Assembly: GCA_022071945.1 (NCBI GenBank)
Contig: JAJVIN010000028.1
Span: forward strand, 186,001 to 250,000
Origin: Thermoanaerobaculia bacterium
Lineage (GTDB): Bacteria; Acidobacteriota; Thermoanaerobaculia; UBA5066
Direction of reading: 5' to 3'
Length of the DNA: 64,000 nt
The notes under the pieces: model-generated
The model's input: only the letters and a program-made list of their open reading frames with translations
What the model was told of the DNA's origin: nothing
Database searches by the model: none
In this document: one piece after another, positions 3,814 through 24,411 of the stretch
Layout: every line of letters begins with the position of its first letter
Numbering within the stretch: position 1 is the stretch's first letter
Position numbers and translations under genes: made by a program

Positions 3814-3890
3814 TGGCGGGGCCGACGGGACTCGAACCCGCGACCTCAGACGTGACAGGCCTGCGTTCTAACCAACTGAACTACGACCCC
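3814..3890 (-). tRNA. tRNA-Asp (GTC)
   Basis: A 77-nt cloverleaf with encoded CCA on the minus strand. The acceptor stem GGGGTCG pairs with CGGCCCC, with one G-T pair. The D arm contains AGTTCAGTTGGTTAGAA. The anticodon loop is CTGTCAC, with GTC at plus-strand 3854-3856. The T arm is CGGGTTCGAGTCCCG, and the discriminator base is G. All features fit tRNA-Asp. It is transcribed alone and followed by a terminator. Confidence 0.96.
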
Positions 3891-4190: not shown

Positions 4191-7100
4191 TCAGTCTCGG
4201 TCTCCGTCCGGGGCACCGGAACCCTCGAGAACCGGCGCGAGCGGGAGCGGCTCGGGCTCGGGCTCGTCTTCCACCAGGCTACAGACCATTCCCCCCCACC
4301 TCACGTCGAACTGGAACTTGCCGGGGAAGGGCACACTCGCCAGGGCGAAGCTCGTCGTCACCGCCTCGACCTTCTGGCCTCGCATCCGGGCGCAGAAGTC
4401 GTTCAAGAAGGCCTGGGAGAGACCCCGGTTTCGGAGCGAGGGAGCGACCACGATCCCCTCGAGCCTCACGACCTTCTTCTCCTCGAAGAGGTACGAGATG
4501 CCGCCCACGACCCGCTCGGCGCCATCCAGGACCATGAGGTACCGGTGCCGCTCGCTGAGCGCGCGAGGCACGCCCGCCCGCAAGGACATCCGGTAGAAGT
4601 GCCCGATCTCCGCCGGCTCGACCGGCTCGCGGACGAGGTACGTGGCCCCGAGACGGTCCTGGATCTGCGTCTGAAAGACGACGTGGCGGAGCCCCTCACT
4701 GACGACTTGGACCTCGACGGGAGATTCGAACCTCGCGCCGGGAAAGACGAGGCGGCTGAAGACGAGCCGGTCAAAGTCTTCCGTAAGGGCGGACTGCAGG
4801 TCGAAGAGCTCCACGAGGGTGGCCGGACGCGCCCCGGCGCCCGATTCGATGGCCGCGAGGACGGCATCAAAGGCCTTCAGAACCGCCGCGTCCGCATCCC
4901 GGAAGTAGGTCTTCCTGTACAGCTGGTACCTCACCAGGTCCGGGTGGAGATCCAGCCGGTAGAGCGAATAGACCTGTTCCACGGCGTCCGCGCGAGCTTG
5001 CGCGGGCGTTCTTGGATGCCTCGCTTCCCACTCCAGGTAGTGGGCGACCGCGGCCCTCAGATCGAGCGGAGCGTGGAACCCCCTCTCGAGTGTCCCCACG
5101 AATCCGGAGAGGAGCTCCTCGAGAGGGGACCCGGCCGGGAGCTCGCTTCTCAGCCTCTGAAGAAGGGGCACGGCCTCGCGCCCGAGAGCCTCGAGACAGG
5201 CCTCGAAGATCCACGCGCGATCCAGCCGTCCCCGGAGCGAGGGGTAGAGGGCCTCGACCTCCTCGAAGAAGCTCCTCTCGATGGCCTCGACGAAGGCCCG
5301 CAAGCCCTGGAACGGAGTCCAGCCCGAGAGCGAAAGGATCGCCCCGCCCTCCCGGAACGACTCCACCGGAACGACCACGTTGGCCGGGCTGAGCGATCCG
5401 GGCACGATCCGCTCCCCGCTCGCCTTCCACAGGGAGAAGAAGCAGGCAAGAGCCCGGACGAACTGGTTCTCCCAGACGTGCTTCTCGGCAGGTCCCTTCT
5501 CGGCGCTGCGAAGCCGGGCCGCCTCGTCCCGGAGCCTTTCGGCCACCGTCAGATCGGTGACATAGGCGAGCGACAGCGCGCCGAGCTCGGGGCGGCTGCA
5601 GCCGAACGCCGGGAGCCGGTGTGCCGACCCCGGGGCCGAGGCCAAGACCATCATCCAGAAGTTCGTGGCCCGGACCGCGCCGCGATCGAGGTCGGGTCTG
5701 AGAACGAGAAGCAGGTCGAAGTGCTTCTTTGCCCAGGTATTGATGGCAACCCGGTAGAGCCGGTAGTCGTGATGCGCCTGCAGCGGCACGACCCAGATCC
5801 CGCGGTCCGGGACGTCCTTCAGATCGAGGTCCTCTCCCTCGAAGGCCAGAAGGACCGACTCGCGCAGAAAGACCGTGTCCGCCAGAACGGCGAGCAGCCG
5901 GCGTGCCTCCTCCTCGCTGATTCCCTCGGCAAGCGCGACCTTGGGCGCCAGCTCCCGTCTCGAGAGCACTTCGGACCGGGAGGCCAGCCATCCCTCGAAC
6001 CAGCGGGCCAGGGTTTCGTGGAGCACCTCCGACCGCCGGGCCAGAACGGCGTCAGCCTGCTGGAGGGCCCATGCCGCAAGCTCGGCGCGGACCGAACCGT
6101 AGTAGTCGGGGTGGTGTTCCACGAACGTGACGAGAAGGGTCAGGACGGAATCCAGAACGGCCGAGGCACTCGCCGGCACGGGAGCCTTGAGCTCGTGGCG
6201 GTAGACGGCAAGCCGGCGCCTGAGGGCCGAGAGCTGCTCCCTCTCGAGATCGGCGTTGGCGATCTTCTCGATGCTCTGCTCCGTTAGGAACGACTTGCCT
6301 GAGCGGACAAAGGAGGAGAGGAGCTCGTCGGTCTCACGGACGGGCTGGTCCAGGAGCAGGATTTCGTACGCCTTCGCCCGGACCTTGACCTCCGGGTGCC
6401 GTGAGAGGGCCTGCAACCGGCGCCGGATTGCCGACCCGGCCCGCCGGTCCTCGTCCTTCAGGATCCCCCCCAGGTGGTCGAGGGCTTCCAGCGACTGCTC
6501 CGGGGTCCCGAAGAGCGCCTCCAGGAAAAGCCGGTGCAAGGAGGCCAGGCGCGGGGACGGCGCCTTTCCGAGCGCCTCCACCCCCGGAACGAGGGGGCTG
6601 TACTGCGGCAAGCGCACCTCGGGCGAGACCGTCCCCAAAGAGACGTCCCACCCATCCTTCACCGAGAGGAATCCCGCCAAAGGGTCGTTTCCGAGCCAGA
6701 GCAGCGGGTGCCGCGCGAAGAGCCCCAGATCGACCTCGGCTCCTCCGGCGCAATACTCGAGGGCGCCGATCCGCAGGTAGTTCCGGTCCGAGGAGGGTGC
6801 GACGAGGAGGCTCTTGTTCCGCCGCCGGTCCCGAAGCCCTCCCGGTCCTGGAACCAGATCCCCCTCGAGGATCCCGAGATCGCGGAAGAGCCACCGCGGA
6901 ACCCGGAACGTGACGCCCGAGGCCGTGATCCTCGCTTCCTTGGAACGGTAGAGCGACTTGATCTCCTCGCCGAAGTTCTTCTCGATCACCTTCCTTCGAT
7001 ACGAGCCCTTCGGTGTCAGCTCTCCGAGATCGAGCTCGAGATCGCGCTTCAGCACGGTGAAGTTGACGACTCGTTCGTACGAGGCGAGGTCCTCGTTGGC

Positions 7101-8813
7101 GGCGGCGACGATCCTCTCGAAGTACTCCCGGGCCGCCTCGCTCTCTGGCTGGCCGCCGAGAACGGGATCCACGGCATCTGGGACGATGAGGAGCACGTTG
7201 TCGTCGCGTCCGTCTCCCGCGAGAAAGACCCGCTTGATCCCCGGCACGCCGTCGAACTTCTGCTCGACTCGCCGCGGCGCCACCGTCCGGCCCCGCGAGT
7301 TCTTGTAGATATCCTTGACTCGGTCAATGATCTCGTAGTGGCCCGAGGGACGCTGCCGGAAAATGTCGCCGGTCGGGATCCAGGATTCCTCTCCGTCGGC
7401 GGTGTCGCTGTCGAGATACCTCGCGACGTAGGCCCCGGCGATCTCGAGCTCCCCCTCCTCCGTCAGCCTGACCTTCATCCCGGGGAGCGGAAAGCCGACC
7501 GAGTTGTCCTCGTACTTCATCGGGGGCGTCATCATGATTCCCCCGGTGGCCTCGGTCATCCCGAAGCCGCTGCACAGGGCGACTCCGTGCTTCTCGAAGA
7601 AGCGAAAGACAGAGGGTTCGAGGGCCCCGGCGGCCGACAGACCCCAGGAAAGGCGGCCCCCGACGACCTGACGGAACGCGGTCAGACCGGCTTCGGGGCT
7701 CCCCGCCCCGTCCATCCGCTTCAGGCACTCGTCGCGGAGCTGCCTCCAGCGGATCGGGATGCTGATCATCCCCGTCGGCTGGTGATCCGACAGCCCTTTC
7801 AGGAGCGACTCGACAGAGGGGTTGCCCGAGAAAACGTAGGTGCCGCCCCAGTAGAGCATCCCCAGCATCTCGAGGTAGCGCCCGAAGGTGTGGTACAGGG
7901 GGAGGTAGGCGACGAGGAGCTCCCCTTCGCCCACGAACGGGAGAGCCGCCGCACGGCAAAAGCGCTTGGAGACCAGGTTGAAGAGAGAGAAGGCGACGCC
8001 CTTCTGCTCGCCCGTGCTCCCCGATGTGAAGAGGACGGTGGCGATCTCGTCGAGGGCGAACCGGCGCCGGGCGGCGAGCCGCCTCTCGACGGTGGCGTGT
8101 CCGAGCCGGGCACACCCGTCTCCCAGCGCGCGGATCCCTCCGCGCGCCAGCTCATCGGCACTGTCGACGACGACGAGTTGGAGCGGCCGGCCAAGCTTGG
8201 CCGAGACGGTCTTGAGACGATGCAGCGTCTCGTCCGAATCGGTCACGACGATGTTGATGTCGAGCCTCGTGAGAATCCGGTGGAGCGCATCGGCGTCGAG
8301 GTGGGGGGCGAGCGGGCTGACGAGGATGTCGTGGGTCAGGCAGGCCAGGTCGCAGAGGGCGCCCTCGAGGTTGTTCTCCATCACGAAGGCGACGCGGGGA
8401 TTGCCGTCCGCAATGTCGTAGAAGAACCCGGCGATCTCCTCGATCCGCCGGCTGACCTGCCGGTACGTCCAGGAGCCCGCCGTCTCCGGACTCTTGAAGA
8501 GGATCCGGTCAGGATGGAGCCGGACACGGTCGGCCAGCATCGAAGCCAGGGTGTACCGGCTCTTTCGGATCGCCCCGAGCGTCGTCTCGGCCCAGCGGGT
8601 CCGCGTCTCCGGATCGGGCAGCCTCATCAGGAACGGCGTCTTGCGGGTCACCTCGAGATAGCGGCTGAAGGTCTCTGCCGTCCCGCCCCCATCCAGAAGC
8701 AGGGCGTCGGCGGCATCGACGAGCGCGACAGCATCCTCGGGAGCGAAACCGTCGAGAGAGGACGCTCTTTCGAGCTCGTCCAGGGTCCGGTCGATCGTTT
8801 CAACGGCGGGCAT
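4191..8813 (-). CDS. Giant fusion: AMP-dependent acyl-CoA ligase-like domain, unassigned helical region, GNAT domain
   Basis: A 1540-residue protein in one unbroken frame. Residues about 90-640 form an AMP-forming long-chain acyl-CoA synthetase-like domain: LFTSGSTGEQKGV at 261-273 (ATP-binding A3 motif), GFGMTE at 416-421, TGDI at 481-484, and RVKDIYKNSRGRTV at 498-511. The ligase part closes with a KxxxRRKVIEKNFGEEIKSLY-like end. Residues about 650-1330 are helical and unassigned; a SLSPANVVV segment faintly recalls the 'HGDLxPxNVL' loop of kinase-like folds, but I would not claim that. Residues about 1330-1510 look like a GNAT acetyltransferase, with IVVAPSLRNRGLSQAFLNDF as the acetyl-CoA loop. 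No signal peptide is seen. It may activate a fatty acid and transfer an acyl group, but the substrate is unknown. It is divergent from the gene at 8921. Confidence 0.8.
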   Translation of the reverse strand: MPAVETIDRTLDELERASSLDGFAPEDAVALVDAADALLLDGGGTAETFSRYLEVTRKTPFLMRLPDPETRTRWAETTLGAIRKSRYTLASMLADRVRLHPDRILFKSPETAGSWTYRQVSRRIEEIAGFFYDIADGNPRVAFVMENNLEGALCDLACLTHDILVSPLAPHLDADALHRILTRLDINIVVTDSDETLHRLKTVSAKLGRPLQLVVVDSADELARGGIRALGDGCARLGHATVERRLAARRRFALDEIATVLFTSGSTGEQKGVAFSLFNLVSKRFCRAAALPFVGEGELLVAYLPLYHTFGRYLEMLGMLYWGGTYVFSGNPSVESLLKGLSDHQPTGMISIPIRWRQLRDECLKRMDGAGSPEAGLTAFRQVVGGRLSWGLSAAGALEPSVFRFFEKHGVALCSGFGMTEATGGIMMTPPMKYEDNSVGFPLPGMKVRLTEEGELEIAGAYVARYLDSDTADGEESWIPTGDIFRQRPSGHYEIIDRVKDIYKNSRGRTVAPRRVEQKFDGVPGIKRVFLAGDGRDDNVLLIVPDAVDPVLGGQPESEAAREYFERIVAAANEDLASYERVVNFTVLKRDLELDLGELTPKGSYRRKVIEKNFGEEIKSLYRSKEARITASGVTFRVPRWLFRDLGILEGDLVPGPGGLRDRRRNKSLLVAPSSDRNYLRIGALEYCAGGAEVDLGLFARHPLLWLGNDPLAGFLSVKDGWDVSLGTVSPEVRLPQYSPLVPGVEALGKAPSPRLASLHRLFLEALFGTPEQSLEALDHLGGILKDEDRRAGSAIRRRLQALSRHPEVKVRAKAYEILLLDQPVRETDELLSSFVRSGKSFLTEQSIEKIANADLEREQLSALRRRLAVYRHELKAPVPASASAVLDSVLTLLVTFVEHHPDYYGSVRAELAAWALQQADAVLARRSEVLHETLARWFEGWLASRSEVLSRRELAPKVALAEGISEEEARRLLAVLADTVFLRESVLLAFEGEDLDLKDVPDRGIWVVPLQAHHDYRLYRVAINTWAKKHFDLLLVLRPDLDRGAVRATNFWMMVLASAPGSAHRLPAFGCSRPELGALSLAYVTDLTVAERLRDEAARLRSAEKGPAEKHVWENQFVRALACFFSLWKASGERIVPGSLSPANVVVPVESFREGGAILSLSGWTPFQGLRAFVEAIERSFFEEVEALYPSLRGRLDRAWIFEACLEALGREAVPLLQRLRSELPAGSPLEELLSGFVGTLERGFHAPLDLRAAVAHYLEWEARHPRTPAQARADAVEQVYSLYRLDLHPDLVRYQLYRKTYFRDADAAVLKAFDAVLAAIESGAGARPATLVELFDLQSALTEDFDRLVFSRLVFPGARFESPVEVQVVSEGLRHVVFQTQIQDRLGATYLVREPVEPAEIGHFYRMSLRAGVPRALSERHRYLMVLDGAERVVGGISYLFEEKKVVRLEGIVVAPSLRNRGLSQAFLNDFCARMRGQKVEAVTTSFALASVPFPGKFQFDVRWGGMVCSLVEDEPEPEPLPLAPVLEGSGAPDGDRD

Positions 8814-8920
8814 CGCTGCCTCCCAGATCTCTATTCTGCTCCGGCCGGACCCTCGGGAGGGAGAGAGCCCTCTTCGACGGAAGCAGACAGGAGACCCGTG
8901 GGCTATGCTCGAAAGGCCCG

Positions 8921-9322
8921 ATGAGCGAAGAGCGCCAGCACACCCAGCCAGCCAGGATCTTCGAGACGCGAAGCGAATCCGCCGGCCGGCTCGAAGCCGA
9001 GGTCTTTCGCCAGATCCTGGCGCGCTGCTCCTTTCCCGGTCTCGAGTTCGTCATGGGGGACCTTGGAGACGGCTTCTATCTCCAGGTCGCGGGGAACCGG
9101 CCGGATGCCGAGACGGGACGGCCCTCCCTCCAGGCGGGACGGAAGTGGTACGTCTCGCGCCATTCCGTCCCTTCCGAGGTCGTCCAGACGGCGTTTCTCG
9201 CCGTCCTGACGTGGCTCGAGCACGAGGCCCGCGAGTCGTTCACGTACCGGGGAGCCCGCATCTTCAGCCCCCACTTCGACGCGGACTTCCTCGCCCGCTT
9301 CCTCGCGACGGGGGCACCGTGA
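8921..9322 (+). CDS. Hypothetical protein (133 aa)
   Basis: I cannot name this family. The 133-residue soluble protein has a conserved-looking core, GRKWYVSRHSVPSEVVQTAF, followed by LTWLEHEARESFTYRG and a His/Asp motif (PHFDADFL). Its stop overlaps the GTG start of the following phosphoesterase (GTGA), so the two are translationally coupled. It starts 107 bases from the divergent ligase-GNAT gene and may share that promoter region. Charge and codon use match the neighbours. Confidence 0.65.
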   Translation: MSEERQHTQPARIFETRSESAGRLEAEVFRQILARCSFPGLEFVMGDLGDGFYLQVAGNRPDAETGRPSLQAGRKWYVSRHSVPSEVVQTAFLAVLTWLEHEARESFTYRGARIFSPHFDADFLARFLATGAP

Positions 9323-10425
9323 CCCGGCTCCGGGCACCCTTGCTCGGCTTCTTGCTCTTCTCGTGTCTCTGGCTTCGGGCAGAGAGCCCGGCTGGGCCGA
9401 TTCACGTCATCCTCGCGGGCGATGCAGGGGAGAACAAAAGGGGCGAAGCGCCCGCTCTCGACGCCGTGAGAGCAGCCGTTTCCGGGTCGAAGGGCGAGAC
9501 GTACGTCCTCTACCTCGGCGACAACATCTACCCGGCGGGTCTTCCCGCCGAGAACGACCCGGGACGGCCCCGGGCCGCCGAGATGCTGCGCCTGCAAGCA
9601 GAGGCTGGCGCAGCGGCGGGGAAGGTGATCTTCATCCCGGGCAATCACGACTGGGCCTACAACCAGCCGGACGGCCTGAACGCCATCCGCAGGCAGGCCG
9701 TACTCCTGTCGACGCTCGGGCCCAACGTGAGCCTCGAACCCAGGGAAGGGTGCCCCGGCCCGGTCGTTCTGGATCCCCGGCCCGGCGTGAGGTTCATCCT
9801 CGTGGACACGCAGTGGTGGTTCCACCCTTTCGAGAAGCCGTCGAAGGAATCGGATGGATGTCCGGTCTTTTCGGAGCCGGCGCTCGAGCTCGCCCTGCAA
9901 CGCGCCCTCGACGTGCCGCCGGGAACGGTCGCCGGCGTCTTCACGCACCACCCCATCGTCTCCGGCGGACCGCACGGCGGGACTTACACATGGAAGGACC
10001 ACATCTTTCCCGCGCGCAACTGGAAAACCTGGCTCTGGGTCCCGCTGCCCGGACTCGGGAGTGCCTATGTCGCATCGCGCCGGAAAGCCCGCCCCGTGGA
10101 GGACCTCGAGTCGCCCCGCTACGTCGAGCTGCGAAACCTCTTCGAGAGGGTCTTCTCGAAGCACCCCCCCCTGTTTCTCGCATCGGGCCACGACCACAGC
10201 CTCCAGGTGATCCGGCAAGACGCCTCCGGTCCCTACCAGCTCATCAGCGGGGCGGGGAGCCCGAAGAAAATGACACCAGTCCGGAATGTCGAGGGGACGC
10301 TCTTCGCGGCCTCCCGGGCGGGGGTCCTGGAGGTGACCATCGAGCCGGGTGGGAGCACCACGGTTCGGGCCCTCACAGGGGATGGCGGGAAGACCCGGGA
10401 GGTCTTCCAGACCCGGATGCGTTGA
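9319..10425 (+). CDS. Exported metallophosphoesterase, calcineurin/purple acid phosphatase-like
   Basis: A 368-residue calcineurin-like phosphoesterase. The metal-binding signatures appear in the expected order: LAGDAGEN (Asp), LYLGDNIYP (GDN), FIPGNHDWAY (GNHD), THHPIVSGG (HH), and ASGHDHSLQ (GHDH). The N-terminus PLLGFLLFSCLWLRAES is a signal peptide, so it should act in the periplasm or outside. I chose the GTG at 9319 because it overlaps the stop of the upstream gene in the GTGA style and places the signal peptide at the N-terminus; a longer in-frame start at 8905 would run through the upstream gene. Members hydrolyse phosphomono- or diesters; the substrate is not predictable. Confidence 0.85.
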   Translation: MTRLRAPLLGFLLFSCLWLRAESPAGPIHVILAGDAGENKRGEAPALDAVRAAVSGSKGETYVLYLGDNIYPAGLPAENDPGRPRAAEMLRLQAEAGAAAGKVIFIPGNHDWAYNQPDGLNAIRRQAVLLSTLGPNVSLEPREGCPGPVVLDPRPGVRFILVDTQWWFHPFEKPSKESDGCPVFSEPALELALQRALDVPPGTVAGVFTHHPIVSGGPHGGTYTWKDHIFPARNWKTWLWVPLPGLGSAYVASRRKARPVEDLESPRYVELRNLFERVFSKHPPLFLASGHDHSLQVIRQDASGPYQLISGAGSPKKMTPVRNVEGTLFAASRAGVLEVTIEPGGSTTVRALTGDGGKTREVFQTRMR

Positions 10426-10564
10426 CGCGGAGGCCGGAGACGGGCCCGGCGGCAGCCCGTCCAGGTCCCTATAATCCGCGCGAGCCTCGAAAGGCTCCAC
10501 ACGCAACGAAATCCGGCTGGCGGCACGGCTTTTGTCCCTCCGCCTGGCCGTGGAGGGTTCATCG

Positions 10565-11989
10565 ATGAGTACCGCCTCTCCCGCCTACGACGTCGTCGTT
10601 CTCGGATCCGGTCCCGGAGGCTACGTGGCCGCGATCCGGTGTGCCCAGCTCGGCCTCAAGACCGCGGTTGTCGAGAAGGACGCGAAGACGCCCGGCATCG
10701 GCCTGGGCGGCACCTGCCTTCACCGGGGCTGCATTCCGACGAAGGCGATGCTGAAGTCGGCGACGCTCCTCGACGAGACGAGGCACGCGGCCGATTTCGG
10801 CGTCAGGACGAGCGGCGTCGAGCTCGACTTTCCGGCCGTCGTGAAGTTCCGCGACAAGGTCGTCATCAAGGGTGCCCGCGGCGTCGAGTATCTGATGAAG
10901 AAGAACAAGATCGACGTTTACGCGGGCTGGGGGATGCTTCTCGCCCCCACTCGCGTCTCCGTGGCCACGAGCGAGGGGACGACGGTTCTCGAGACGAAGA
11001 ACGTCATCCTGGCGACGGGCTCGGTCCCGAGAGATCTCCCCTTCCTGAAGGCCGACGGCAAGAAGATCCTCAACTCCGACCACATCCTGAAGTCGACCAG
11101 CATCCCGAAGTCGATGCTCGTCATCGGGTCGGGGGCCGTCGGCTCGGAATTCGCGTCCTGTTACGCCCGCTACGGGACGAAGACGGTTCTCGTCGAGGTC
11201 CTGCCCCGGCTCTTGCCCATCGAAGACGAGGAGATCAGCAAGGAGATCGAGAAGTCGTTCAAGAAGAAGGGCATCGAGTGCTGGGTGAAGACGGGTGTCA
11301 AGACCGTCACCGAAAACCCGGACGGCACGCTCCACGTGACGGCCGAAACGGCCGACGGCAAGGAGAAGGCCTGGGACGTCGAGAACGTCCTTCTGGCCGT
11401 TGGCCGCAGACCGGTCACGGAAGGGATCGGGCTTGCGGAGCTGGGCGTCAAGACGGAGAGGGGATACGTCGTGGTCGATGGGTTCCAGCGCACGAACGTC
11501 CCGGGTGTTTACGCCATCGGCGACATCGTCATGATGCCGTGGCTCGCCCACGTGGCGTCGGCGGCCGGCATCGTCGCGGCCGAGGCGATCGCGGGCGTGG
11601 ACACACACCCGATCAACCTCGACCAGATCCCGGGCTGCACCTACTGCGATCCCGAGGTCGCCTCGATCGGGCTTTCGGAAGCAAAGGCGAAGGAGCGGGG
11701 CCACGACGTCAAGGTCGGCAGGTTCAACTTCATGGTCCTGGCGAAGTCCGCCATGGAACACACCAACGAAGGCTTCGTGAAGATCGTCTCCGAGAAGAAG
11801 TACGACCAGATCCTCGGCGTCCACATCATCGGTCCCCATGCCACGGAACTGATCGCGGAAGCGGGAGCGCTCCTGCGGTGCGAGGCCACGACCGAGGAGA
11901 TGATCCGGACCATCCACGCCCACCCGACGCTTTCCGAGGCCATGCACGAGGCGGCCGAGGCCGTCAACGGACACAACATCCACGGTTGA
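10565..11989 (+). CDS. lpdA: Dihydrolipoyl dehydrogenase (E3)
   Basis: A 474-residue FAD-dependent dihydrolipoamide dehydrogenase, the E3 subunit of 2-oxoacid dehydrogenase complexes and the glycine cleavage system; it reoxidises dihydrolipoamide with NAD+. Visible features are the FAD Rossmann motif (VLGSGPGGYVAA), the redox disulfide at Cys51/Cys56 (GGTCLHRGCIPTKAM), the NAD Rossmann motif (VIGSGAVGSEFA), YAIGDI for FAD, and the C-terminal HAHPTLSEA base pair. I chose the ATG at 10565 because a GGAGGG ribosome site precedes it. No E1 or E2 gene is adjacent. A terminator follows. All catalytic residues are present. Confidence 0.95.
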   Translation: MSTASPAYDVVVLGSGPGGYVAAIRCAQLGLKTAVVEKDAKTPGIGLGGTCLHRGCIPTKAMLKSATLLDETRHAADFGVRTSGVELDFPAVVKFRDKVVIKGARGVEYLMKKNKIDVYAGWGMLLAPTRVSVATSEGTTVLETKNVILATGSVPRDLPFLKADGKKILNSDHILKSTSIPKSMLVIGSGAVGSEFASCYARYGTKTVLVEVLPRLLPIEDEEISKEIEKSFKKKGIECWVKTGVKTVTENPDGTLHVTAETADGKEKAWDVENVLLAVGRRPVTEGIGLAELGVKTERGYVVVDGFQRTNVPGVYAIGDIVMMPWLAHVASAAGIVAAEAIAGVDTHPINLDQIPGCTYCDPEVASIGLSEAKAKERGHDVKVGRFNFMVLAKSAMEHTNEGFVKIVSEKKYDQILGVHIIGPHATELIAEAGALLRCEATTEEMIRTIHAHPTLSEAMHEAAEAVNGHNIHG

Positions 11990-13903: not shown

Positions 13904-14800
13904 TCAGTAGATCGCCGGAGTGACGCCATCGATCCGGTCGAGGGCGCGAACCCGGACCTGCTCCTGCGAAGAGAAGGTGCGGGAGAGGACCTCCTGGATC
14001 GCCTCCGCCTTGCCCTCGCCCGAAAGGCCCGGAGTCGCCTCGATCTCCTTGCGGGCGGCCCGATAGCTGGCGAGACGGCCCTTGAACTCGGCTTCCTCGC
14101 GGTCGAGAGCCTCCAGGCGGCGCGCCGCCTCGGACCCGACGAGCTCGACGCGGGCTGAACGGACCTCGGCTTCCGAGGCTCCCCTCTTGCGAAGCTCCGA
14201 CTCCTTCTCTGCGAGGACGACCGGGAGGAGGGCCTCGTCGGCACGACGCGCGGCGGCCACCTCGGGGTCGCCGGGGTTCCGGCGGGATTCGAGGAAGCGG
14301 CGAGCGGCCCGCTCTTCCTCCCCGAACAGCTGATCGGCGACGTGACGGCCGAACACCTTCCGGCGGAGATCGGAGAGCCTCTCGAATCCGGTCTCGAGCT
14401 CGGCGGTTTCTCTCTGGGCATTCATCTCGCGCGCCTGGTCTCGGTAGGAGAGGTACTGGGCGAGAAGAGCCTGGGCGTCCAGGCGAGCCTGCCCCGCCAG
14501 GCGAGAGTTGATGTCCGCCGTGATCCTGGACCTGACGCGAGAAAGCCCGTCCTCACCCTGCGCCGTGAGGTAGTAGTCAAAGAGCTGGAGCGCGCCCGGC
14601 GTGGGCACGAAGCGCCCCTGCGCATCCGTGGCGAGTTCCCCATCCGGCTCGGTCCCCTGAAGAGACGCGGGGAGTTCCTTCCCGGCGGCCCGCCCCTCGC
14701 GGTCGAGCCCGCGACGCTCACGTTCGGGACCATCGGCCAGAAGCGGGGAGACGGCCAGGGTGGACAGCAAGGCGAGGGCGGTCAGATTCAGTGTCTTCAT
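13904..14800 (-). CDS. lifO: Lipase-specific foldase (lipase chaperone, Lif/LifO)
   Basis: A 298-residue steric chaperone for the adjacent lipase. It has an N-terminal hydrophobic segment (residues 5-22) that exports or anchors it in the periplasm, the family's SLQGTEPDG motif at 46-54, and the signature block LQLFDYYLTAQGE at 71-83 (consensus RxxFDYxLSAxGE, with the first Arg replaced by Leu). The remainder is long, charged and helical, as expected of Lif, which wraps around the lipase. It starts 13 bases after the lipase stop with an AAGGAGAGG ribosome site, the same lipase-then-foldase order as in Pseudomonas and Burkholderia. It is probably required to fold the lipase before type II secretion. 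Confidence 0.9.
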   Translation of the reverse strand: MKTLNLTALALLSTLAVSPLLADGPERERRGLDREGRAAGKELPASLQGTEPDGELATDAQGRFVPTPGALQLFDYYLTAQGEDGLSRVRSRITADINSRLAGQARLDAQALLAQYLSYRDQAREMNAQRETAELETGFERLSDLRRKVFGRHVADQLFGEEERAARRFLESRRNPGDPEVAAARRADEALLPVVLAEKESELRKRGASEAEVRSARVELVGSEAARRLEALDREEAEFKGRLASYRAARKEIEATPGLSGEGKAEAIQEVLSRTFSSQEQVRVRALDRIDGVTPAIY

Positions 14801-14813
14801 GGTCCTCTCCTTC

Positions 14814-15773
<960 letters not shown>

Positions 15774-17086: not shown

Positions 17087-18655
17087 TCAGGGCCTCCCGC
17101 TCGCCTCGAAGCGTCCGGTCGATCTCCAGCGGCTGGTGCCCTTGCCGTTCTCCCCGTACCCCGAGGCCGGCGTGGCGCCTTCCCCGCGCTGCTTTTCGAG
17201 ATGAAAGATGAGGGCCCCCGCCAGGGCCACCATCTCGGCGTCGGACCGCGCCTCGAGCTCCTCGGGCCGGAACACCTCCTCGACGAACTTCGTGTGAACG
17301 TCGTTGGTCTGGTACCTCGGGTGGGCGAGGAGCCACCGGTGAAACTCCAGGCTCGTGTCGACACCCTGGATCTCGAACTCGTCGAGGGCCCGGCGCATGC
17401 GGGCAATCGCCTCGTCCCGTGTTCCGCCCCAGGCGATCAGCTTGGCGATCATGGGGTCGTAGTAGACCGAGATCTCACTTCCGGCCCGCATCGAGCGATC
17501 GACCCGCACGCCGGGTCCGTCCGGGATTCTCAGGAAGTGGATCCGGCCGGTGGCGGGGGCGAAGTTGTGCCAGGGGCTCTCCGCGTTGATACGGCACTCG
17601 ATGGCGTGGCCCTTGGGCCGGGGATCAGCGCAGTAGGCGAGCGCCTCGGGCGTGATGGGGAGGCCCATCGCGATCCGGAGCTGTTCCTTGACGATGTCGA
17701 TGCCGGTCACCCACTCCGTCACCGGGTGCTCCACTTGCAGCCGTGTGTTGACTTCGAGGAAGTAGAAGTTCTTGTCCTTGTCGACGACGAACTCGAAGGT
17801 GCCCGCGTTGCGGTACCCGAGGGCCCGGGCGGCCTTCACGGCCGTTTCCCCCATCCGCCGCCTCATCGCGTCGTCGACGAAGGGTGACGGGGTTTCCTCC
17901 ACGAGCTTCTGGAAACGCCTCTGAACGGAGCACTCGCGTTCTCCGAGGTGGATGAAGTTCCCGTGGGTGTCGCCGAGGATCTGGATCTCGATGTGCCGGG
18001 CCGGGGAGATGTACTTCTCCATGAAGAGGTCCGGGTTGCCGAAGGCCTTTCGCGCCTCGCCCTCGGCCCCACGGAAGGCTTCCTCGACGTCCTCCGCCCG
18101 GTGGACGATGCGCATCCCCTTGCCGCCGCCGCCCCCCGCGGCCTTGATCAGGACGGGGAACCCAAACTTCAACGCCAGGTCCCTGGCCATACCGGCCTCG
18201 GGAATCGCCCCCTCGCTTCCCGGGATCGTGGGAACCCCGAAGCCCTGCATGAGGCGGCGCGCCGCGACCTTCTCGCCCATCTGCTCGATCACCTCGGGCT
18301 GGGGGCCGATGAAGACGATCCCGGCCTCTTCCACGGCCCGCGCGAACGCCTGCCGTTCCGAGAGGAAACCGTAGCCCGGGTGGATCGCCTCCGCGCCGGC
18401 GCGGCGGGCCACGTCGAGGATCTTCGGAATGGAAAGGTAGCTCTCGGCGGCCGCGGCCTCGCCCACCCGGTACGCCTCATCGGCGTGCTCGAGGTGAAGG
18501 GCCTCGCGGTCGGCATCGGAGTAGACCGCCACGGTCCTGAGTCCGGCCTCCTTGCAAGCCCTGAGAACCCGGATGGCGATCTCACCCCGGTTGGCAACGA
18601 GGACCTTCTGGAACGGGCGGGCCTTCGGAAGAGCGGCCGGCGATTCTGTGCTCAT
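17087..18655 (-). CDS. Biotin carboxylase subunit of an acyl-CoA carboxylase
   Basis: A 522-residue ATP-grasp biotin carboxylase that carboxylates the biotin on the neighbouring carrier using ATP and bicarbonate. The order of motifs is normal: VLVANRGEIAIRV at the N-terminus, AIHPGYGFLSE, the glycine-rich ATP loop AGGGGGKGMR, RHIEIQILGD, the metal/substrate site FLEVNTRLQVEHPVTE, and a C-terminal RVDRSMRAG...YYDPMIAKLI. About 50 extra residues after the core (KQRGEGATPASGYGENGKG) form a flexible tail. It lies 13 bases after the carboxyltransferase stop in the same operon. The pairing with a PccB-like subunit makes propionyl-CoA carboxylase the likeliest role. Confidence 0.93.
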   Translation of the reverse strand: MSTESPAALPKARPFQKVLVANRGEIAIRVLRACKEAGLRTVAVYSDADREALHLEHADEAYRVGEAAAAESYLSIPKILDVARRAGAEAIHPGYGFLSERQAFARAVEEAGIVFIGPQPEVIEQMGEKVAARRLMQGFGVPTIPGSEGAIPEAGMARDLALKFGFPVLIKAAGGGGGKGMRIVHRAEDVEEAFRGAEGEARKAFGNPDLFMEKYISPARHIEIQILGDTHGNFIHLGERECSVQRRFQKLVEETPSPFVDDAMRRRMGETAVKAARALGYRNAGTFEFVVDKDKNFYFLEVNTRLQVEHPVTEWVTGIDIVKEQLRIAMGLPITPEALAYCADPRPKGHAIECRINAESPWHNFAPATGRIHFLRIPDGPGVRVDRSMRAGSEISVYYDPMIAKLIAWGGTRDEAIARMRRALDEFEIQGVDTSLEFHRWLLAHPRYQTNDVHTKFVEEVFRPEELEARSDAEMVALAGALIFHLEKQRGEGATPASGYGENGKGTSRWRSTGRFEASGRP

Positions 18656-18668
18656 CGGACCTCTCCTC

Positions 18669-20222
18669 TCAAAGCGGGATGTTGCCGTGCTTTCTCGACG
18701 GCCCCTTCTTCCGCTTGTTCTTCAGCATCTCGAAGGCGGCGATCACCCGCGGCCGCGTGTCGCGCGGGTCGATGACGGCGTCGATGTACCCGCGGGAGGC
18801 CGCGATGTAGGGGTTGGCGAAGCGCTCCCGGTAGTCCTCGGTCTTTTGCTTCAGCGTCGCGGCCGGATCCGCGGACGCGGCGATCTCGGACTTGAAGATG
18901 ATCTCGGCCGCTCCCTGCGGGCCCATCACGGCGATCTCGGCCGTTGGAAACGCGAAGTTGATGTCTCCCCGAATGTGCCTGGAGCTCATCACGTCGTAGG
19001 CGCCGCCGTAGGCCTTCCTCGTGATGACGGTGACCCTCGGGACCGTCGCCTCGCAGTAGGCGTACAGGAGCTTGGCGCCGTGCTTGATGAGGCCGCCGAA
19101 CTCCTGGTTCGTCCCGGGCAAGAACCCCGGAACGTCGACGAACGTCAGAAGCGGAATGTTGAAGGCGTCGCAGAACCTCACGAACCGGGCACCCTTCAGC
19201 GAGGAATCGATGTCGAGGACTCCGGCGAGAACGGCGGGCTGATTCGCCACCACACCCACCGGCCGGCCGTTCATCCGGGCAAAGCCGACCACGATGTTGC
19301 CCGCGAAGTCGGGCTGGATCTCGAAGAGCTCGCCGTCATCGACGACCCTCCTGACGATCTCGCGGATGTCATACGGCTTGTTGGGGTCGTCCGGGACGCA
19401 TTTCAAGAGCTCCTCGTCCCGGCGGTCGGCGGGGTCCGAAGCCGCCCGGGCCGGCGGATCATCCAGATTGTTCGACGGCAGGAAGCTCAGGAGCTTGCGG
19501 ACCGCGCTGAGCGCCTCGACGTCGTTCTGGAAGGCCCCGTGAGCCACCCCGGACCTCTGGCAGTGGACGCTCGGCCCCCCGAGCTCCTCGAACGTCACGT
19601 CCTCCTGAGTCACCGTCTTGATGACGTTCGGGCCCGTGATGAACATGTAGCTCGTGTGCTCCACCATGAAGATGAAGTCGGTGATCGCCGGGGAGTAGAC
19701 GGCCCCGCCTGCGCACGGCCCCATGATGACCGAGATCTGAGGGACCACTCCCGAGGAGAGCGTGTTGCGGTAGAAGATCTCGGCGTAGCCCCCGAGGCTC
19801 TCGACGCCTTCCTGGATCCTGGCTCCTCCCGAGTCGTTCAGGCCGACGACGGGGGCACCGTTCTCGACGGCCAAGTCCATGATCTTGCAGATCTTCTCCG
19901 CGAAGGTCTCCGACAGAGAGCCCCCGAAGACCGTGAAGTCCTGGGAGAAGACGTAGACGAGCCGCCCCTCGATCGTTCCCCAGCCCGTGATGACGCCGTC
20001 GCGGACGATCTTCTGCTCGCTCAGCCCGAAGGCCTCGCACCGGTGGGTCACGAACATGTCGAGCTCGTGAAAGGAGCCGGGGTCGAGCAGGACCTGCATC
20101 CGCTCCTCGGCCGTCAGCTTTCCCTTCTTGTGCTGGGCTTCGATTCGCTTGGCCCCGCCGCCGAGACGGGCTTCCGCCTCGAGAGCACGCAGTTTCGCAA
20201 TCTTCTCTTCAATCGACATCAC
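18669..20222 (-). CDS. pccB: Acyl-CoA (propionyl-CoA type) carboxylase carboxyltransferase subunit
   Basis: A 517-residue carboxyltransferase beta subunit that transfers CO2 from biotin to an acyl-CoA. PccB-like features include [29 protein letters not shown] near residue 60, [20 protein letters not shown] (N-half acyl-CoA oxyanion region), [21 protein letters not shown] and [12 protein letters not shown] in the C-half, and a typical [19 protein letters not shown] end. Start is GTG at 20222 or the ATG one codon later. It is the first gene of the operon, followed by biotin carboxylase, carrier and the RsbR-like gene. Propionyl-CoA to methylmalonyl-CoA is the likely reaction; methylmalonyl-CoA epimerase and mutase are not in the window. 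Confidence 0.93.
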
Positions 20223-22117: not shown

Positions 22118-23185
22118 CTATTGCGGTTTCGGCTGGGGCTCAGCCGGAGGCTGGGGAGCCGGCGCCTCCATGGCTGCCTCCGGCGGCCGGCCGTGACGCC
22201 CCATCATGTAGTTCACGAGGTCGTTCACGTTCATCGTCGAGACGTTCGTCCCCGGAACGATGAGAATCTTCTTCTGGGCCAGCTGCTTGGCGACCTGCAT
22301 CTTCACGAACGCGTCGCCCCCCATCTTGCCCAGGGCCTCGGCCTCCTTGCGGATCCCCTCGGACTCGGCCTGAGCCCGGGCCAGGATCGCCTTGGCCTCG
22401 TTGATCTTCACCTGGTAGTAGCCGTCCGCCGCGTTTCGGGCCCGCCCCGCCTCGCCACGCGCCTCCTCGAGCCGCTGGTTCCAGATGGCTCTCTTCGCTT
22501 CGAGCTCGCTCTGCTTCTGGACCTCCATGTTCTTCTGCTGCTCGACGAGCTTCTGGCGGTCGGCCTCGGCCTGCTTCTGGGCGTTGATGGCGGCCTGGTA
22601 GGCCGGATCGAAGCGGTGTTGCTGGACCTGCAGCATGTCGACCAGGATCCCGTAGGGCTTCAGCGTTTCCCCCAGCTCGTCCTTCGCCTTGGCGGCCATC
22701 TTGTTCTTGATGGACACCTGGTAGTACTCCTCGCTCGAGATCTCGTTGAAGACGTCGCGGATCACCGAGCGGGAGATGGGCCTCACGATCCGTTCCTTGA
22801 TCTCGACGATCGAGTTCCCGACATTGGACACGATGAACCCGGCGTTTTGCGGGTCGACCCGGAACATCACGTTGACGTCGATGTAGATGTTGTTCCCGTC
22901 CTTCGTCTTGAACGTGATGTCGTCGGGTACCGCCCGGTCGCCCTCCGCGGGATTGGCGTTCATCATCAGGTTTTGCTGCGAGGTCGGGAGCGTCGTCCAG
23001 GCGTTGATGAAGGGCAGGACCATGTAGACGCTACCCGGCGCGTAGACGGTCTGGGTCCCCCTCTTGCCGAAGATCCCGATCAGGCTCGTCTTCACCCCGA
23101 CTTCCGTCGAGTTGGTGGCCCGGCAACCCGTCAGAACCGGCACCGAGAGAAGGAGGACGAAGAGGACCGAGAGGTTCCGTTTCAT
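22118..23185 (-). CDS. SPFH (band 7) domain lipoprotein
   Basis: A 355-residue SPFH/prohibitin-like protein. The N-terminus is a lipoprotein signal (VLFVLLLSVPVLTGC, Cys at residue 21), so it is probably lipid-anchored. An SPFH domain follows (about 30-210), with GSVYMVLPFINAWTTLPT and DGNNIYIDVNVMFRVDP. A long charged coiled coil follows (about 210-310, KQAEADRQKLVEQQKNMEV), then a Pro/Ala-rich tail. Its start overlaps the stop of the upstream SPFH gene by four bases (ATGA), so two different SPFH subunits are made together, in the manner of HflK/HflC. Such complexes form ring or cage structures that corral membrane proteins or proteases. Its target here is unknown. Confidence 0.85.
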   Translation of the reverse strand: MKRNLSVLFVLLLSVPVLTGCRATNSTEVGVKTSLIGIFGKRGTQTVYAPGSVYMVLPFINAWTTLPTSQQNLMMNANPAEGDRAVPDDITFKTKDGNNIYIDVNVMFRVDPQNAGFIVSNVGNSIVEIKERIVRPISRSVIRDVFNEISSEEYYQVSIKNKMAAKAKDELGETLKPYGILVDMLQVQQHRFDPAYQAAINAQKQAEADRQKLVEQQKNMEVQKQSELEAKRAIWNQRLEEARGEAGRARNAADGYYQVKINEAKAILARAQAESEGIRKEAEALGKMGGDAFVKMQVAKQLAQKKILIVPGTNVSTMNVNDLVNYMMGRHGRPPEAAMEAPAPQPPAEPQPKPQ

Positions 23186-24324
23186 TTCTTCCCTCCCTCC
23201 TGGGGCAGACCGCTTCCAGACAAGCCCAGAATCGACCAGGCGTTCCTGATGAACTGCATGTACTGTTCGGGCGTCATCACGGCGCCGTCGATGTTCTCGA
23301 ACATCTTGGCTGTCTCGAGCGCCACGACATAGCGCCCGCCCGCCTGGGTCAGGGCGTCGGCCTTCAGACGCTTGGCCTCGGCCGCGGCGACGTTGACTTC
23401 CTTGTCTCCCCTGGCACGGGTCTGGGACGAGTAGAGCTCGGCCTCCGCCTTCACCTTGGCCATCTCGGCCTCGACCTGCGACTCGGCGATCGTGATCGCG
23501 GCATTTCCCTTCGACTCTATCTGCTGAAGCTTGGCCTTCTCCTCGTTGACCAGGGACTCCTTGCGGTTCTTTTCCGTCAGCTGGACGGCGACTTTCTTCT
23601 CCTGAAGCGACTTCTCGTAATCCGGAACGTACTGATAGCTCCTCAGGAGGAGCCGCTCGACCCGAAAGCCGCGCTCCGCGAACCGCTCGCGCAGGTAGTT
23701 CTCCGCCTCCTTGACCGCCGCAATGCGAATCGTCTCGTCGTAAAACTGCTCCGCGTTGATCTTCCCCAGGGTGGTCAAGACCCCGTTTCGAAACGTGTTG
23801 AGGACAAACGAATCAACGTAGAGCGACCCCCAGCCGAAGTCCTTCGCGACCTTGACCGGATTCACGATGGAGTAGAGGAGCGTCACATCGGCCATGACGG
23901 CATAGCCGTCCGAGGTCTGAACGGTCAGGGCGTCGATCGTGCGGTGCGTTGCCTTTCCAAGGATCCGGTCGCGCTTCTCGAAGTACTCCCGCACCCTGCG
24001 CTGAGCCTCGTCGCTCCTCGCCTTGGCGATGGAGGCTTCCCTGTCATTGGAGGCCTCGAAGACGTGGACCTCCCTCGGGAACGTGTGCATCGTCGTCCCG
24101 ACCGGAACGAAGTAGAGCCCCGTCTCGTAGACACGATCCTTGATCCCGGTCTTGAATCCGAACCGGGCCTGCTCGACCCCGTACTCGTAGGGCTCCACGC
24201 GCGCGGTGCACGCGGCATAGAAAAACGTGACAAGAACGACCGTCAGGATTCCCAGAAAGACGGTCCTACCGAGAGACCGGACAAGGCGGCCCAGCGCCTC
24301 GCCCCTGCCAGCGACGTCGACCAT
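23182..24324 (-). CDS. SPFH (band 7) domain membrane protein
   Basis: A 380-residue SPFH protein with one N-terminal membrane helix (TVFLGILTVVLVTFFYAAC, about 20-38) and the SPFH domain (about 45-240, with ETGLYFVPVGTTMHTFPREV and MADVTLLYSIVNP), followed by a coiled coil (about 250-340). I chose the ATG at 24324 because AAGGAGGAG stands before it; the upstream in-frame start at 24375 would add 17 residues without a ribosome site. It is the first gene of a two-gene SPFH operon, and the partner is an SPFH lipoprotein overlapping by four bases. Together they resemble a heteromeric HflKC/slipin pair. Confidence 0.85.
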   Translation of the reverse strand: MVDVAGRGEALGRLVRSLGRTVFLGILTVVLVTFFYAACTARVEPYEYGVEQARFGFKTGIKDRVYETGLYFVPVGTTMHTFPREVHVFEASNDREASIAKARSDEAQRRVREYFEKRDRILGKATHRTIDALTVQTSDGYAVMADVTLLYSIVNPVKVAKDFGWGSLYVDSFVLNTFRNGVLTTLGKINAEQFYDETIRIAAVKEAENYLRERFAERGFRVERLLLRSYQYVPDYEKSLQEKKVAVQLTEKNRKESLVNEEKAKLQQIESKGNAAITIAESQVEAEMAKVKAEAELYSSQTRARGDKEVNVAAAEAKRLKADALTQAGGRYVVALETAKMFENIDGAVMTPEQYMQFIRNAWSILGLSGSGLPQEGGKK

Positions 24325-24411
24325 CAGGCTCCTCCTTTCGTCAGAAAAGCCGTGGGAAGGCCATCCTGCCTTCATGTTACGCCGTGGAGCGCGAAGGAGA
24401 CGTTCCCCGTC

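Follow-up and report, generated by a model that had tools for sequence, protein, structure and literature searches.

The gene under study and its homologues

The gene under study lies on the minus strand of the window (the whole stretch of 64,000 nucleotides of DNA that was analysed) and forms a single frame of 1540 residues, from an ATG at position 8813 to a stop ending at 4191. A GGGAGG ribosome-binding site, a good match read directly from the sequence, is located 5 nt 5' of the ATG, and the same stretch read on the plus strand is interrupted by stops. The coordinates, the length and the order ligase, central region, GNAT domain proposed in the initial annotation were all borne out, the coding strand being the minus strand. 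The features are as follows, with residue numbers referring to the protein.

4191–8813, minus strand: whole gene, 1540 aa, ATG start, homologues full length
8819–8824, minus strand: Shine-Dalgarno sequence GGGAGG, read directly
8571–8813, minus strand: N-terminal region, residues 1–81, helical by inspection, partly conserved (L53, L62, W74)
7299–8570, minus strand: AMP-forming (ANL) ligase core, residues 82–505, from PF00501, motif columns and alignment to carboxylic acid reductase A domains
6939–7298, minus strand: ANL C-terminal domain with the A10 lysine, Lys602, residues 506–625, from Pfam (PF23562) and the conservation of K602 (102/102)
6660–6908, minus strand: small beta-rich domain, residues 636–718, predicted (model mc6b5a6206234, pLDDT 50–79)
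6555–6659, minus strand: low-confidence linker, residues 719–753 (pLDDT ~40)
5859–6554, minus strand: predicted HEAT-like all-helical domain, residues 754–985, from the model secondary structure and Foldseek matches to PI3K helical plus kinase units
4746–5831, minus strand: predicted pseudokinase (protein-kinase fold), residues 995–1356, lobes to ~1234 and a helical extension after (model mbf3f18bb0ff8, pLDDT 92, pTM 0.89; Bud32 Z 14.8)
4269–4658, minus strand: GNAT acyltransferase domain, residues 1386–1515, from Pfam and fold comparison (GCN5 Z 15.0, 124 aligned, 2.4 Å)

The 1540-residue frame is a real gene and no accidental fusion. A chance or shadow reading frame was considered and rejected: Pfam recognizes nothing in the long plus-strand frames, and only those portions of them that lie opposite the gene match other loci. 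An assembly or annotation artefact joining separate genes was also rejected, the same architecture being found in independent assemblies. In two genomes (G013 and G009), where the gene appears split, the observed pieces end at or near contig ends wherever the contig extent is known.

Other features of the window were recorded. A tRNA-Asp(GTC) gene (3814–3890, minus strand) lies ~300 bp past the 3' end of the gene, on the same strand. Further away, and also on the minus strand, are a lipase chaperone-like gene adjoining an alpha/beta hydrolase, constituting a foldase-lipase pair in an acidobacterium (13904–15770), a biotin carboxylase and carboxyltransferase pair corresponding to an acyl-CoA carboxylase (17087–20222), and two adjacent SPFH/Band 7 genes (22118–24375).

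Collinear homologues share ~30–52% identity, and 102 sequences, that of the window included, were analysed. These originate from Acidobacteriota, Gemmatimonadota, Bacteroidota, Krumholzibacteriota, Myxococcota, and Calditrichota. All the domains occur in the same order in each aligned sequence, with gaps only at contig ends, so that the three-part order holds in every relative. Among 40 relatives, several same-family genomes and one from another family in the class contain full-length collinear homologues (33–52% identity); split genes were looked for among close relatives and none was found. The nearest relatives that carry a name are Acidobacteriota, probably of the class Thermoanaerobaculia. 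A scan of genome contigs, queried with a ligase-containing alignment, gave 321 matching stretches, of which 80 were kept, nearly all covering most of the query. Going by record titles, the kept loci belong to Acidobacteriota (with Aminicenantes), Gemmatimonadota, Bacteroidales, Ignavibacteria, Kapabacteria, Krumholzibacteriota, Deltaproteobacteria/Polyangiaceae, and Calditrichota, several of the records being metagenome bins of doubtful taxonomy. In a phylum scan, 27 of 297 genomes encode the family; part of them form a divergent outer clade, whose members are also full length (~31% identity). Overall, the family is encoded at these 80 collection loci and at 31 further whole-genome regions (two overlapping sets, some records being the same), nearly always in one frame, and no relative was encoded on the viral contigs. 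The length of the homologues is nearly constant, at ~1520–1550 aa. Because architecture, domains and length are kept across relatives, the fusion is ancient and stable, though patchy among species.

Activation and transfer domains

Pfam recognizes AMP-binding (residues 95–457, E 9.6e-51) and AMP-binding_C_3 (506–625) in the N-terminal part, while many NCBIfam ligase families are matched, none close to its cut-off. The closest solved relatives are adenylation domains of carboxylic acid reductases (6oz1, 5msp, 5mso). The motifs TSGSTGxxKG, YHTFGR, SGFGMTEATGG, TGD, and DRVKDIYKN can be read directly, covering motifs A3, A5, A7, and A8 of ANL acyl-CoA ligases, to which the A10 lysine is added. 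In the 102-sequence alignment, the columns TSGSTG-x-x-KG, FGMTE, TGD, and DR-x-K are invariant or nearly so, and the catalytic positions K271, T420, E421, D483, R498, and K602 essentially invariant. The ATP-binding residues are intact after alignment. Of all the parts of the protein, the ligase also shows the strongest conservation (median identity of 51% within the window's clade), which, together with the near-invariant columns, argues for a working enzyme rather than a relic. The position of the pocket-closing Trp414 of acetyl-CoA synthetase corresponds here to Gly418 (aligned by eye on motif A5), and the substrate is, therefore, probably larger than acetate.

At the C-terminal end, Acetyltransf_1 is matched at residues 1419–1486 (E 1.3e-5). 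The GNAT fold is confirmed by comparison with GCN5, with the GNAT domain of a Streptomyces PAT (Z 12.5), and with N-acetylglutamate synthase (Z 13.7). It is accompanied by the R/Q-x-x-G-x-G/A CoA motif, in which the motif-A glycine, Gly1464, is present in 96 of the 102 sequences and position 1466 is G, A or S in 94; the R/Q position is occupied by K or H in many of them. An acidic residue at position 1452 (92/102) is a candidate general base. The initial suggestion that activation and acyl transfer could occur on one chain gains partial support, as the ligase is motif-complete, the GNAT domain carries its CoA motif, and relatives keep the same order.

The completeness of the ligase bears on a reading in which this domain is a sensor, binding an acyl-AMP or acyl-CoA ligand and thereby regulating a GNAT domain that acts on metabolic enzymes with ordinary acetyl-CoA. 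A precedent exists in the type I and II bacterial protein acetyltransferases, in which an NDP-forming synthetase domain without activity of its own serves to sense acetyl-CoA (PMC8556138). Nevertheless, this reading is unlikely here: contrary to the inactive domain of Pat, the synthetase motifs are kept in all the sequences, down to an A10 lysine that never varies.

Beta-rich, HEAT-like and kinase-fold domains of the middle region

Between the end of AMP-binding_C_3 (residue 625) and the start of Acetyltransf_1 (residue 1419), Pfam gives zero matches. A model of residues 636–1540, built with 8 sequences (pLDDT 74.7, pTM 0.61), predicts five successive parts: a small domain of beta structure, a linker of low confidence, a HEAT-like domain made wholly of helices, a domain with two lobes, and the GNAT domain. 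With Foldseek, the helical and two-lobed parts retrieve PI3-kinases (E 8e-5, low TM-score). The two-lobed domain, folded alone (residues 978–1365, 53 sequences), reaches a pLDDT of 92.1 and a pTM of 0.89. All 50 matches listed in the VIA comparison are kinase-like, the best being Bud32 (Z 14.8, 202 residues aligned, 3.5 Å), and Foldseek agrees with a kinase-like fold (E 2.6e-5); the two lobes are those of the protein-kinase fold. Sequence profiles of this domain find no PDB kinase and no credible Pfam family, so that only a fold search reveals it. The central region had first been described as helical and as matching nothing recognizable. The helical part stands, in the form of the HEAT-like domain, which has the kinase fold on one side and the small beta domain on the other; the second statement is not supported, as the centre resolves into these three by predicted structure.

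The motif positions of the kinase fold were placed by eye, using the sequence together with predicted secondary structure, independently of any residue-level structural superposition. On this basis, the sequence of the catalytic loop is P-G-x-I-S-P-x-N. Where the catalytic Asp would stand (1140), the window's clade mostly has A, L, S, I or M; S or L takes the place of the DFG Asp, and lysine is absent at the beta3 place. In the outer clade, the catalytic-loop Asp occurs in 9 of 12 sequences, the DFG Asp and beta3 Lys still being absent. The residues expected of an active protein kinase are, thus, incomplete, and since the beta3 Lys and DFG Asp are missing, together with the catalytic Asp in the window's clade, the modelled domain is classed as a pseudokinase by the usual criteria.

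Some pseudokinases perform AMPylation or glutamylation. The domain could likewise be an enzyme with such unusual chemistry, using the ATP or AMP handled by the ligase, and the conservation of Asn1145 (100/102), of Arg1021 (53/53 in one alignment), and of the outer-clade Asp is in keeping with this. It is, however, improbable, as the loss of the beta3 Lys and DFG Asp extends to both clades and makes metal or nucleotide binding doubtful.

Gene neighbourhood and proposed function

Neighbouring ORFs were clustered in 111 loci and the window, and checked with NCBIfam and tblastn. In a Bacteroidales clade, citrate synthase and a mitochondrial-type aconitase are transcribed away from the gene, and an NADP-isocitrate dehydrogenase lies directly behind it (25–174 bp in most). 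A different citrate synthase subfamily is found at L033, L057, L077, L095, L143, L158, L159, and L164, in varied arrangements: upstream with a different, eukaryotic-type isocitrate dehydrogenase at L057 (and similarly L077), alone in two further arrangements at L033 and L095, and, in the outer clade, behind the gene at L158 and L159, farther off at L164, or, at L143, which belongs to the window's own family, immediately upstream in the same orientation and accompanied by an aconitase-family gene. Methylaspartate mutase and ammonia-lyase adjoin the gene at 12 loci, in three arrangements; these methylaspartate (glutamate mutase) pathway genes belong to an Aminicenantes-like clade. At L090 and L096, which are related to each other, a glutamine synthetase gene is transcribed divergently from the gene.

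Chance alone would place about 0.3 citrate synthase genes in 80 loci. On the tree, the link with citrate synthase turns up independently, by place or arrangement, at least five times; the association with these neighbours was noticed after looking at the loci. At 40 stand-alone ligase loci from the same and related genomes, all within the window's class, none of these citrate or glutamate neighbours was found (0/40). At the window's own locus, citrate synthase is absent nearby and the link with the TCA cycle is weak, consisting of a dihydrolipoyl dehydrogenase (10532–11989) one gene away. Most loci outside the Bacteroidales, the Aminicenantes-like clade, and part of the outer clade have other neighbours (copper ATPase, two-component genes, glgC). 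Overall, the context points to citrate and glutamate metabolism over lipids, the latter having been among the initial proposals.

Several other neighbours were observed. In the window, a divergent 506-aa ORF with a sub-threshold metallophosphatase match (8905–10425, plus strand) separates the gene from the dihydrolipoyl dehydrogenase. In a Gemmatimonas-like clade (L039, L040, L043, L050), a copper-translocating P-type ATPase and a small membrane protein lie 5' of the gene and diverge from it. In Krumholzibacteria (L044, L049, L051, L080), a sensor-kinase-like ORF comes first, followed by a response regulator that adjoins or overlaps the start of the gene (families assigned by eye), which suggests one operon with the gene. 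At L158, L160, L161, L165, and L168, in the outer clade, a glgC-like ORF located 5' is transcribed away from the gene, as is an archaemetzincin-like ORF in three of them (both by eye).

The glutamate connection is compatible with a small-molecule enzyme, in which the ligase would make an acyl-CoA and the GNAT domain join it to a free amine, e.g., glutamate, yielding an N-acyl amino acid or a storage compound or osmolyte, with the middle region as a scaffold only. The neighbouring genes make and break 2-oxoglutarate and glutamate, and the N-acetylglutamate synthase match to the GNAT fold fits as well. This is rather unlikely, however, since all the relatives carry ~600 residues of HEAT-like domain and pseudokinase, a feature more typical of recognizing proteins or of regulation, and a conserved transporter or export gene is absent beside the gene. 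No carrier-protein partner was found among the conserved neighbours either.

The preferred reading, with a probability of about 40%, is a protein acyltransferase coupled to a ligase that supplies its donor, with the citrate/2-oxoglutarate/glutamate node as its site of action and the HEAT-like domain and pseudokinase as scaffold or gate. As suggested by its complete motifs, the ligase would convert ATP and a carboxylic acid, probably larger than acetate, to an acyl-AMP and then an acyl-CoA, from which the GNAT domain would transfer the acyl group to an amine. Judging from gene context, the acceptors would most likely be lysines of the enzymes of this node. The HEAT-like and catalytically dead kinase-fold domains may bind the target protein and/or sense nucleotide, and so gate the transfer. 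An acyltransferase making its own donor is proposed because intact activation and transfer domains flank a recognition or regulatory core.

Comparison with known protein acyltransferases and related enzymes

Searches of the literature on the named fusion, the pseudokinase-acetyltransferase combination, the gene cluster, and the Aminicenantes link returned nothing on this protein, which may belong to a kind of metabolic control enzyme that has yet to be described. Bacterial protein acetyltransferases are believed to use the shared acetyl-CoA pool. If the proposed reading is true, an acid activated and transferred on the same chain would couple that specific acid to the control of central metabolism. 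The family, whose length varies little around 1530 aa, is spread widely over metagenome bins from many bacterial phyla. Pfam lacks a model for the kinase-fold domain, so the label left by annotation would be just 'AMP-binding protein'. With its catalytic-loop Asp, the outer clade offers a natural series for a kinase fold losing catalysis inside a metabolic enzyme.

Among bacterial GNAT acetyltransferases, type III carries a cAMP-, NADP- or ACT-domain, type IV is a GNAT domain alone, and type V a tandem GNAT (PMC8556138). The domain content here differs from all three, and the synthetase part is, by Pfam, AMP-binding plus AMP-binding_C_3. The best reading of the sequence is that the protein falls outside the five described types, all of which lack both an AMP-forming ligase and a kinase fold. 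That it would represent a sixth type, with the donor made in cis, the pseudokinase recognizing or gating the target, and a non-acetyl acyl group setting the flux of the node, is a doubtful, tentative extension.

The class III PI3-kinase Vps34, matched by Foldseek at E 8e-5, also has a helical domain followed by a kinase-fold domain, although the TM-score of ~0.2 and the 13% identity denote a shared arrangement without evidence for a shared function. Bud32/PRPK and APH-like kinases share the fold of residues ~995–1234, whereas the catalytic Asp, DFG Asp, and beta3 Lys are missing here and no Pfam or PDB match exists at the sequence level. Carboxylic acid reductases provide the closest solved adenylation domains, but in these enzymes PCP and reductase domains follow; here, neither occurs after residue 625, and the beta-rich domain that comes next has no Pfam carrier or reductase match. 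Pat/PatZ (type I) resembles the protein in its large synthetase-like N-terminal part and C-terminal GNAT domain, while its synthetase is inactive, NDP-forming, and ~700 aa long, as opposed to an AMP-forming ligase with intact motifs followed by an inserted HEAT-like domain and pseudokinase. Pat/PatZ ties the acyl-CoA state to protein acylation, and the protein described here is likened to it on this point as well.
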